Positions 8,109 through 13,782 of a DNA stretch of 15,258 nt are shown here, in pieces. The notes below the pieces were generated by a model. That model was given only the letters and a program-made list of their open reading frames with translations, ran no database searches and was not told the origin of the DNA. The stretch spans positions 1 to 15,258 of the forward strand of contig JAUYMQ010000104.1 in assembly GCA_030698575.1 (NCBI GenBank). The letters run 5' to 3'. Numbering within the stretch: the first letter of the stretch is position 1; every line of letters starts with the position of its first letter. A program made the position numbers and the translations under genes. The stretch is from Deltaproteobacteria bacterium. GTDB taxonomy: Bacteria > JAUYMQ01.

Positions 8109-9323
8109 ATGCTTCGGCCCATGACGTTCGAGGCGCGACTCAAAGACGCTCTCGGTGCCGTTCCCGCGGGCCGCACCCGCAGCATCTCCGAGCTTGCGTC
8201 GACAGCTGGTCGTCCCTGGGCGGCCCGCGAGGCGGGGCGCCTCATTGCCGGGTGGGCGCGCAACCGTTGCACGGCGCTGCCGCTGCACCGCGCCGTCCGA
8301 TCGGGCAGCGGATTGCCATTCGGCGATCGGCAGCAGCGGAAACTCGTGGCGGAAGGCGCGCGGCCGCGGCGGAGCGAGGCTATCGACGATTGGCTCGCGC
8401 GCGCCGGCGCCGACCTGGTCGGCCTCCTTGCCTCGCGCAGCTACTGCCGCCCGGAGTGCGCCCTCGCCGTGCGCGCGCGATCGGAAGCCGTCGAGCCGCT
8501 CACGGACGCGCGCGAGGCGGCCCGGCGTGGCTTCCGCCCATGCGCGCGATGCGCGCCACCTGTCCGGCGCGTTCGCATGCCTGATCCGTTGCGCCCGCCC
8601 GGCCGCCGGCCACACTGCGCCAGCGCCGATCTCCCACTCGAAACGCAGCTCGACCGATGCGGCCACGCGATCATCCCGCGCATCCTCGATGCGCGGGAGT
8701 GCGCCTACTTCGAGCGGGCGGCTGCGCGGCCCTCCAGCCATCGCCGCCGTGTCACTCTCGAGCGCCACGCATTCGGGCGGGGCGAGTACGGTTACGTCGG
8801 CGCGGGCGAGGTTCATCGGCGGATCGAAACGCTTCGCCGCCGGCTCTACTCCGCGCTCTTGCCGGACGCGCGCGCCTGGCTTGCGCGCCTCGGACGCGCA
8901 GACGATCTTCCCGACACCCTTCGATCCTTTGACGCGCGATCGGCGGCGGCCGGGCAGCGTCTCGCCGCATCGACGCTCCTTCAATACGGAGCCGGCGGCT
9001 GGAACGCGCCTCACCGCGATCTGTACGGCCCGGTTATCTTCCCCTTCCAGGTGGTGATCGTTGTCTCGCGCGCCCCCTACCAGGGCGGCTCCTTCGCCGT
9101 CATCGAGGCGCGGGCCGACGGTAAGGATCTCTGGCACCTCGTCCGCCCCCGGCCTGGCGACGCCGTGATCTTTCCCTCCGAGGCCCGACCTGTTCCCAGA
9201 GATGCCGGGGCCGGGCGCACCACGCAGCGCTTCAAGCCGGCCCCGGTTCGCCATGCGCTGCTGCCCATCCGCGCCGGCCGGAGGACGGCCCTGGGCCTGG
9301 TTCTGCACGCGGCGCGGAAATGA
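8109..9323 (+). CDS. Three-domain DNA alkylation-response fusion: ATL + Ada zinc domain + 2OG-Fe(II) dioxygenase
   Basis: 404 residues in three modules. (a) Residues 5-85 resemble the DNA-binding domain of O6-alkylguanine alkyltransferases: LASTAGRPWAAREAG (29-43) carries the helix with the Arg finger (Arg40), and PLHRA (58-62) replaces PCHRV. The methyl-acceptor Cys is therefore Leu59 and the base-flipping Tyr is Ile26, as in non-catalytic alkyltransferase-like proteins. (b) Residues 103-150 match the Ada methyl-phosphotriester domain: Cys113-x3-Cys117-x27-Cys145-x2-Cys148, against C-x3-C-x26-C-x2-C in E. coli Ada. (c) Residues 180-404 are a 2-oxoglutarate/Fe(II) dioxygenase with HRD (His302, Asp304), distal His382 and a likely 2OG-binding Arg391. 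The start may be the ATG at 8109 or 8121; neither has a clear ribosome site. The protein is unusually Arg/Ala-rich. Domain calls are good; the joint function is inferred. Confidence 0.85.
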   Translation: MLRPMTFEARLKDALGAVPAGRTRSISELASTAGRPWAAREAGRLIAGWARNRCTALPLHRAVRSGSGLPFGDRQQRKLVAEGARPRRSEAIDDWLARAGADLVGLLASRSYCRPECALAVRARSEAVEPLTDAREAARRGFRPCARCAPPVRRVRMPDPLRPPGRRPHCASADLPLETQLDRCGHAIIPRILDARECAYFERAAARPSSHRRRVTLERHAFGRGEYGYVGAGEVHRRIETLRRRLYSALLPDARAWLARLGRADDLPDTLRSFDARSAAAGQRLAASTLLQYGAGGWNAPHRDLYGPVIFPFQVVIVVSRAPYQGGSFAVIEARADGKDLWHLVRPRPGDAVIFPSEARPVPRDAGAGRTTQRFKPAPVRHALLPIRAGRRTALGLVLHAARK

Positions 9324-12127: not shown

Positions 12128-12946
12128 ATGATCGAGGGCTGGAGCGTTCATCCGAGCATTCCCCTCGGGCTGGGGCTCATCGCCCTGCTCTACGGGATCG
12201 GGGTGGGGCCGCTCAGGCGCCGACTCGACCCGGCTGCCCGGATCGAGCCGCTTCAGATCGTGACCTTTGCGGCCGGCCTGCTGGTCTTCTTCCTCGCGCT
12301 CACCGGGCCCATTCACGATCTGTCCGACAGCTACCTCTTCAGCGCCCACATGGTGCAGCACCTCATCATCACCCTTGTGGCGCCGCCCTTGCTGCTCGCG
12401 GCCACCCCGGAGTGGCTCGCTCGCGGTCTTCTCCGCCCCCCGGCCGTTTACGGGATGGTTCGCTTTCTCACCCGCGCCCCGGTGGCCTATCTCATCTACA
12501 ATTTTGTTCTTGCCCTGTGGCACCTGCCCAGGCTCTACAACTCGACGCTCGTCCTGCTCGAGGTTCACATCCTCGAGCACGTGCTTTTCATCGGCACTGC
12601 GTTTCTCATGTGGATGCCTGTGCTCTCCCCGCTCCCGGAACTGCGGCTTCGGCCGATTGTGCAGGTGCTCTATCTCATCCTTCTGACCTTTCCCATGAAG
12701 GGGATCGGGGCGCTCCTCACGATGTCGGACAGCATCCTCTATCCGGCCTACGCGCTTGCACCTCGCGCCTTCGGTCTGGACGCATTCTCCGATCAGCGAA
12801 TCGGCGGGCTCCTCATGTGGCTGCCGGCGGGGCTGATCCTCTGGGGCGGCGCGGCGATCGTATTTCTCAGCTGGTGGGCCCGAGAGCACCGGAGCGACGA
12901 GATCGCGCGGAACAGGGCAGGCGCCACCCCGGCGGAGCCGGTATGA
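12128..12946 (+). CDS. ctaG: Cytochrome c oxidase assembly protein, caa3_CtaG family
   Basis: 272-residue polytopic inner-membrane protein with roughly seven hydrophobic segments, of the family needed for caa3-type oxidase assembly and copper insertion. Conserved features are HDLSD (63-67), AHMVQHLI (73-80, His74 and His78), LWHLPRLYN (130-138, His132), EVHILEHVLF (145-154, His147 and His151) and SDQRIGGLLMW (221-231). The paired histidines and methionines are plausible copper ligands. The ATG at 12128 has GAGGAG 4 nt upstream. The stop overlaps the Sco start as ATGA. This family is unrelated to the Cox11-type protein also called CtaG. No oxidase subunits are in the window. Confidence 0.92.
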   Translation: MIEGWSVHPSIPLGLGLIALLYGIGVGPLRRRLDPAARIEPLQIVTFAAGLLVFFLALTGPIHDLSDSYLFSAHMVQHLIITLVAPPLLLAATPEWLARGLLRPPAVYGMVRFLTRAPVAYLIYNFVLALWHLPRLYNSTLVLLEVHILEHVLFIGTAFLMWMPVLSPLPELRLRPIVQVLYLILLTFPMKGIGALLTMSDSILYPAYALAPRAFGLDAFSDQRIGGLLMWLPAGLILWGGAAIVFLSWWAREHRSDEIARNRAGATPAEPV

Positions 12947-13782
12947 GATCGATCGGAGCAGCAGTCCTGACGCTGGTGGCCTTCATGCTCGCGGCTTGTG
13001 GCCAGGGGAGCGATCATTACGAGACCGCCGGCAAGGTCGTCTCGGTGAACGAGGCGGACCGCGTGATCAAGGTGGCGCACGAGGACATCCCGGGTTTCAT
13101 GCCCGCCATGACCATGAACTTCGACGTGGCCCCTGGCCTGCCGATTGCGGGCGTTCATCCGGGCGACGAGATTCGTTTCACGATCGAGCGGACTTCAAGG
13201 AGCCTGCGCGTGACCCGGCTCCAGCGTGTGCGCGCCGGCGCCGCCTTCACCGTTGCAGAAGAGGCGGGGCGCAGCGGCTCGGAGGACTCGCCGCTCGATC
13301 CGCGCCCGGCGCCGGAGATCCGGCTCGTCGATCAGGCGGGGCAGCCCTTTTCACTCGAGACCCTTCGCGGCCGCGCTGTGCTCCTGGATTTCATCTTCAC
13401 CAGCTGCACCGGCCCATGCCCCATTCTGACGGGGGCCCATGCCCGGCTTCAGCAGCGCCTTCCGGCGGATCTTCGCGCGCGCGTTCATCTGCTTTCCGTC
13501 ACCGTCGATCCGGCAAACGACACGCCGGAAAAGCTCACGGAGTACGCGCGCTCCCAGGGAGCGGATCTCACCAACTGGACCTTCCTCACCGGCGAAACCG
13601 ATGCGGTGCAGGAGGTCCTTTCGAGCTACCACGTCGGAAGCGTTCGACTGGAGGATGGCAGCCTGAACCACACGGTCGTCACCTACCTGATCGGACCCGA
13701 CGGAAACATTCGGCGTTACTACCTCGGGCTCGAGCACGCTCAGGAAGAGGTGATGACCGATCTGCTCGAGGTGCTCTCATGA
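12943..13782 (+). CDS. CusF-like domain fused to SCO1/SenC copper chaperone, lipoprotein
   Basis: 279 residues. The signal peptide ends in lipobox LAAC (16-19), so the protein should be lipid-anchored on the periplasmic face. Residues 28-95 resemble the CusF/copper-binding domain: GKVVSV, His46, then MPAMTMNF (53-60) with Met56 and Met58. The position of the CusF tryptophan is Met53. Residues 120-279 are a Sco thioredoxin fold with SCTGPC (Cys155, Cys159), VTVDP (186-190), WTFLTG (212-217) and the third copper ligand His243 in NHTVVTYLI. Sco proteins deliver copper to, or reduce, the CuA site of cytochrome oxidase subunit II. The ATG at 12943 overlaps the ctaG stop, and the gene's own stop overlaps the next start. 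The frame is open far upstream (to 11809), but that part is a shadow. Confidence 0.92.
   Translation: MRSIGAAVLTLVAFMLAACGQGSDHYETAGKVVSVNEADRVIKVAHEDIPGFMPAMTMNFDVAPGLPIAGVHPGDEIRFTIERTSRSLRVTRLQRVRAGAAFTVAEEAGRSGSEDSPLDPRPAPEIRLVDQAGQPFSLETLRGRAVLLDFIFTSCTGPCPILTGAHARLQQRLPADLRARVHLLSVTVDPANDTPEKLTEYARSQGADLTNWTFLTGETDAVQEVLSSYHVGSVRLEDGSLNHTVVTYLIGPDGNIRRYYLGLEHAQEEVMTDLLEVLS

Follow-up and report, generated by a model that had tools for sequence, protein, structure and literature searches.

The gene at positions 8109..9323 on the forward strand of the window (the whole 15,258-nucleotide stretch of deltaproteobacterial DNA analyzed here) encodes a single protein of 404 amino acids, in which an AGT C-terminal DNA-binding domain and an Ada zinc domain are followed by a 2OG-Fe(II) oxygenase of the family PF09859 (Oxygenase-NA). 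Judging from its sequence, this domain architecture is real and new, built from component repair parts that are already known. When the thirds of the protein were scanned apart with hmmscan, each module scored above its Pfam curated cut-off, bearing out the proposal of an earlier sequence-only reading that three alkylation-linked modules are present in one chain and that separate profile searches would recognize them. A chance origin of the architecture can be regarded as excluded because the three matches are independent and above cut-off and because relatives with the same module order exist. The gene looks like a natural fusion of a two-gene unit, Ogt-AdaZn plus PF09859, rather than a shuffled Ada, since Ogt-AdaZn proteins overlap PF09859 genes in other phyla.

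The gene and its three modules

The reading frame was delimited by the open reading frame itself (8109-9323, stop codon included), the Pfam matches and codon statistics, and it runs for 404 codons in one frame with zero internal stops. With codon statistics trained on the other genes of the window and scored in 180-base segments, this frame outscored its forward alternatives in almost all segments, and no frame switch was seen. The gene frame tied with another forward frame at residues ~121-150 and was equaled or slightly exceeded by a reverse frame in a handful of segments; competitive reverse-frame coding scores are common in GC-rich DNA. Repeats in the gene region are at chance level only. 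By eye, the neighboring genes in the window (P-type ATPase and BolA/glutaredoxin-like genes) are not repair-related, which speaks against a repair role of the gene. Further downstream (12128-13782), again by eye, a CtaG/Caa3-like membrane protein is followed by a lipoprotein in which a CusF-like copper domain seems to be joined to a SCO1/SenC domain.

The first module (residues 7-82; 8127..8354, forward strand) is an AGT C-terminal DNA-binding domain, as indicated by a PF01035 (DNA_binding_1) match of 32.8 bits against a cut-off of 27, by alignment to 30 MGMT domains and by structural matching; the AGT N-terminal domain is absent from the fusion protein. In the alignment, the catalytic Cys is replaced by Leu59 (codon 8283..8285, forward strand), so that the motif P58-L59-H60-R61 stands in place of the PCHR of an active AGT, and the base-flipping Tyr is replaced by Ile26, while Arg40 (the arginine finger), Asn52, His60, and Arg61 are retained. 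The two halves of the protein were modeled separately with AlphaFold2; residues 1-50 were predicted with confidence, but the active-site loop (54-65) was not (pLDDT <50). Residues ~4-84 match MGMT and ATL structures with Z scores of ~6 over 77-80 residues (rmsd 3.8-4.6), including Schizosaccharomyces pombe Atl1 (3gx4; Z 6.2, 80 residues, rmsd 3.8).

ATLs lack the Cys, mostly have Trp in its place and conserve both the Tyr and the Arg finger (PMC10779285). Like Atl1 and the Escherichia coli ATL, the fusion has an AGT C-domain without the reactive Cys; it also keeps the Arg finger, but with Leu for Trp and Ile for Tyr it fits the ATL definition only in part. The sequence-only reading was thus correct that the reactive Cys has been replaced, but the ATL role that it assigned to this module is doubtful given the Leu, the lost Tyr, the poorly predicted loop and a separate, canonical PWHRV ATL encoded in the source genome (C142:1019-1258). 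In the same draft genome, a contig edge truncates an Ada-type PCHRV alkyltransferase, of which the C-terminal end is left (C559:3691-3822), and a search of this genome found no other AdaZn and no AlkB. Archaeal ATL-EndoV fusions likewise join an AGT C-domain to an enzyme, although the partner enzyme differs (PMC10779285).

The second module (residues 104-150; 8418..8558, forward strand) matches PF02805 (Ada_Zn_binding) at 38.4 bits against a cut-off of 23 and was modeled with a pLDDT of ~93-95. Its model matches N-Ada (1u8b; Z 6.4, 63 residues, rmsd 4.4) and is 40% identical to 1wpk over 60 columns, both of these scores being modest. All four zinc-domain Cys residues are present in the spacing first proposed (C113-x3-C117-x27-C145-x2-C148), and this Ada zinc module probably binds zinc. 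Methyl acceptance is plausible at Cys113 (8445..8447, forward strand), whose counterpart in the alignment is Cys38, the residue at which E. coli Ada takes up methyl from phosphotriesters (PMC4437013). Both the Zn and the Fe sites were judged by alignment and not by distances in the models. E. coli Ada shares the AdaZn and AGT modules with the fusion but is arranged as N-Ada zinc, AraC, and AGT, whereas the fusion has another order, an AGT module without its Cys and an added oxygenase; the Pfam scan found no AraC domain match, so the protein does not qualify as an Ada adaptive-response regulator. The contrast with classical Ada drawn in the sequence-only reading accordingly stands for the missing AraC domain and the additional oxygenase, but the order itself is not unique, as Ogt-then-AdaZn proteins occur in other phyla. 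A linker of low prediction confidence (~residues 151-176; 8559..8636, forward strand) leads to the third module.

This third module (residues 177-404, Pfam core 225-402; 8637..9320, forward strand) scored 124 bits against the PF09859 cut-off of 26.2, covering the full model (1-172/172), and was modeled in a P4H fold with a pLDDT of 92.9. It had previously been labeled a dioxygenase of the generic 2OG-FeII_Oxy type, and PF09859 is the more specific assignment; PF13640 stayed below its cut-off. The AlkB-type PF13532 (2OG-FeII_Oxy_2) had no match in the fusion protein or anywhere in the draft genome; like the oxygenase of the fusion, AlkB is a 2OG-Fe(II) enzyme linked to the repair of alkylation damage, but it belongs to a separate family. 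The Fe/2OG residues are complete: the Fe(II) ligands His302-x-Asp304 (9012..9020) and distal His382 (9252..9254), which had been picked out beforehand, and Arg392 (9282..9284), whose role as the probable 2-oxoglutarate carboxylate ligand is extrapolated from the superfamily, all lie on the forward strand and are invariant in 45/45 relatives. Stand-alone PF09859 proteins (~230 aa) share with the fusion the HxD...H motif, the Arg and the link to Ada-type genes, but the fusion domain is a sequence outlier: its mean identity to relatives is 38%, against 55% for those relatives compared with one another, and about one-third of the near-invariant positions are altered. Given this divergence, it may have changed its substrate or lost some of its activity. 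A sequence search for solved structures of this module found none, and the nearest folds of known structure belong to prolyl-4-hydroxylases and PHD2 (Z 14-16), the best P4H match reaching a Z score of 16.0 over 176 residues (rmsd 3.4). AlkB first appears at rank 23 in the Foldseek list and is missing from the top 50 rows ranked by Z score, which leaves room for a similar fold. The modeled oxygenase resembles prolyl hydroxylases more than AlkB.

Overlapping-gene relatives and the distribution of PF09859

Two-domain proteins with the same Ogt-then-AdaZn order as the fusion, an active-looking AGT and a four-Cys AdaZn were found in two other phyla, and matches spanning both domains occur in a third. 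In five sampled genomes from two phyla, the stop codon of the Ogt-AdaZn gene overlaps the start of a PF09859 gene by four bases (ATGA in L161, L183, and L195; GTGA in L179 and L194), and in L174/L196 the Ogt-AdaZn gene is adjacent to a downstream PF09859 gene. These units thus agree with the fusion in their modules and module order, with the oxygenase next in line, but as two overlapping genes whose AGT is longer at the N-terminus and keeps both the PCHR Cys and the Tyr, neither of which is kept in the fusion. Indeed, all Ogt-AdaZn proteins read with the motif covered have PCHR, the fusion being the only exception. We infer that fusion was the direction of change; the simplest account would be that the gene overlap was lost and that the AGT active site decayed along with it.

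All searches together yielded a single fused example. A second three-module fusion was not seen among the best 80 genome contigs listed or in ~890 genomes queried with the full-length or the N-terminal protein; matches in 88 plasmid records were mostly to the oxygenase part and none covered 80%, and no relative was found in viral contigs. A literature search likewise found no description of this three-module fusion. Near-full-length matches in three genomes (G507, G509, and G591) were rejected as fusions, since they consist of separate genes in different frames, and G373 (L011) carries the three modules as neighboring separate genes.

PF09859 itself was found in 7/386 sampled genomes. We surveyed the best 80 PF09859 loci from a scan of genome contigs, and 41 of these have an MGMT, Ada, AdaZn, or AlkB gene within 1.5 kb (MGMT at 40, four-Cys AdaZn at 16, small AdaZn at 17 and AlkB at 7). 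In Caulobacter, the predicted 2OG dioxygenase CCNA_00745 is the most MMS-induced gene and shares an operon with the Ada-like CCNA_00746 (PMC10957082); as Caulobacter vibrioides has a PF09859 match, CCNA_00745 probably belongs to this family. An ~80-aa Ada-zinc-like protein is encoded just downstream of the oxygenase at L011:1815-2273, L027:5667-5921, L045:5665-5913, and ~15 other PF09859 loci; the L011 copy has three Cys left, and its methyl-acceptor position looks like Gly. At other loci, a second, more divergent PF09859-like gene is found beside or near the first (L034:4824-6408; L040:6506-7507; L093:7381-8241), adjoining a full ada gene in L040 and L093.

Proposed function and alternative explanations

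Taken as a whole, the protein is probably a fused two-gene alkylation-damage unit that combines a DNA-binding AGT module, a methyl-accepting AdaZn, and an alkyl-oxidizing oxygenase. Having lost its N-terminal domain, Cys, and Tyr, the AGT module most likely has no role beyond binding DNA as a winged helix, while the Ada zinc module most likely accepts methyl groups from DNA methylphosphotriesters at Cys113, a modification that would adjust its binding to DNA as well. The oxygenase would then most likely oxidize an alkyl group on a substrate held nearby by the first two modules, either damaged DNA, in line with the Pfam prediction, or the protein in its methylated form.

A related but different division of labor had been put forward from the sequence, in which a true ATL senses bulky or O6-alkyl lesions, the AdaZn takes the methyl group from phosphotriesters, and removal or marking of damage falls to the oxygenase. 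The retained Arg finger, Asn, and His-Arg, the ATL-like absence of the Cys and the fold match to Atl1 agree with such a sensor; however, the substitutions of Trp and Tyr, the low-confidence loop and the canonical ATL elsewhere in the genome do not, and the proteins closest to the fusion in module order are active AGTs, not ATLs, making this account unlikely. The oxygenase could instead be a P4H-like protein hydroxylase or demethylase that acts under alkylation stress on alkyl-accepting or other proteins and not on DNA. Its best solved folds, prolyl-4-hydroxylases and PHD2, which Foldseek ranks above AlkB, and its mainly suicide methyl-acceptor genomic partners would suit this role, but a common fold does not fix the substrate and some of the partners are AlkB genes. 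The Pfam description of PF09859, whose wording we take as a prediction, also names damaged DNA as the target, and we regard an oxygenase directed at proteins instead of DNA as unlikely. No biochemistry was found for any PF09859 member in a literature search.

The losses in the AGT part and the many changed near-invariant positions of the oxygenase might alternatively mark a decaying or neofunctionalized repair gene whose first module is dead and which is drifting as a whole, but the 404-codon frame is intact and neither the zinc Cys, all four of which are present, nor the Fe/2OG ligands show any loss, so that we think this account quite improbable. An assembly artefact joining unrelated genes is more improbable by far: the source genome is a draft (4.13 Mb, 653 contigs) with an estimated contamination of 4.6%, but precisely these modules occur as overlapping neighboring genes in other phyla, and the coding statistics show no forward-frame switch. 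This genome is the sole representative of its phylum among the genomes compared.

Under the favored reading of a fused alkylation-damage unit, the protein acts as a Rosetta stone that physically ties the broadly distributed PF09859 family to Ada and AGT modules, a link that the overlapping-gene version in other phyla makes recurrent, and it supports the idea that PF09859 oxygenases work together with suicide methyl-acceptor proteins. The fusion also offers a compact protein in which to probe the PF09859 substrate, alkylated DNA vs methylated repair protein. One testable minority hypothesis, suggested by the protein-hydroxylase-like fold and the frequent suicide-acceptor partners, is that PF09859 oxygenases regenerate suicide repair proteins, with the S-methyl-Cys of AdaZn or AGT being hydroxylated, formaldehyde released and the thiol restored. 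Regeneration of this kind would explain why PF09859 mainly travels with MGMT and AdaZn genes, why its fold is hydroxylase-like and why the fusion retains in cis only the module with a methyl-accepting Cys; we regard it as very unlikely, but if true it would make the fusion a self-recycling phosphotriester demethylase.

MGMT and AdaZn modules were also seen in another setting, in a protein for which a literature search found no paper. At L187:1428-3067 (minus strand) and L192:580-2159, the gene that comes after an ECF sigma factor gene encodes a protein combining zf-HC2 (an anti-sigma-type zinc finger), an active-looking MGMT and a four-Cys AdaZn, the zf-HC2 match being above the Pfam cut-off in L187 and below it in L192. 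This zf-HC2-MGMT-AdaZn protein is a candidate alkylation-sensing anti-sigma factor.
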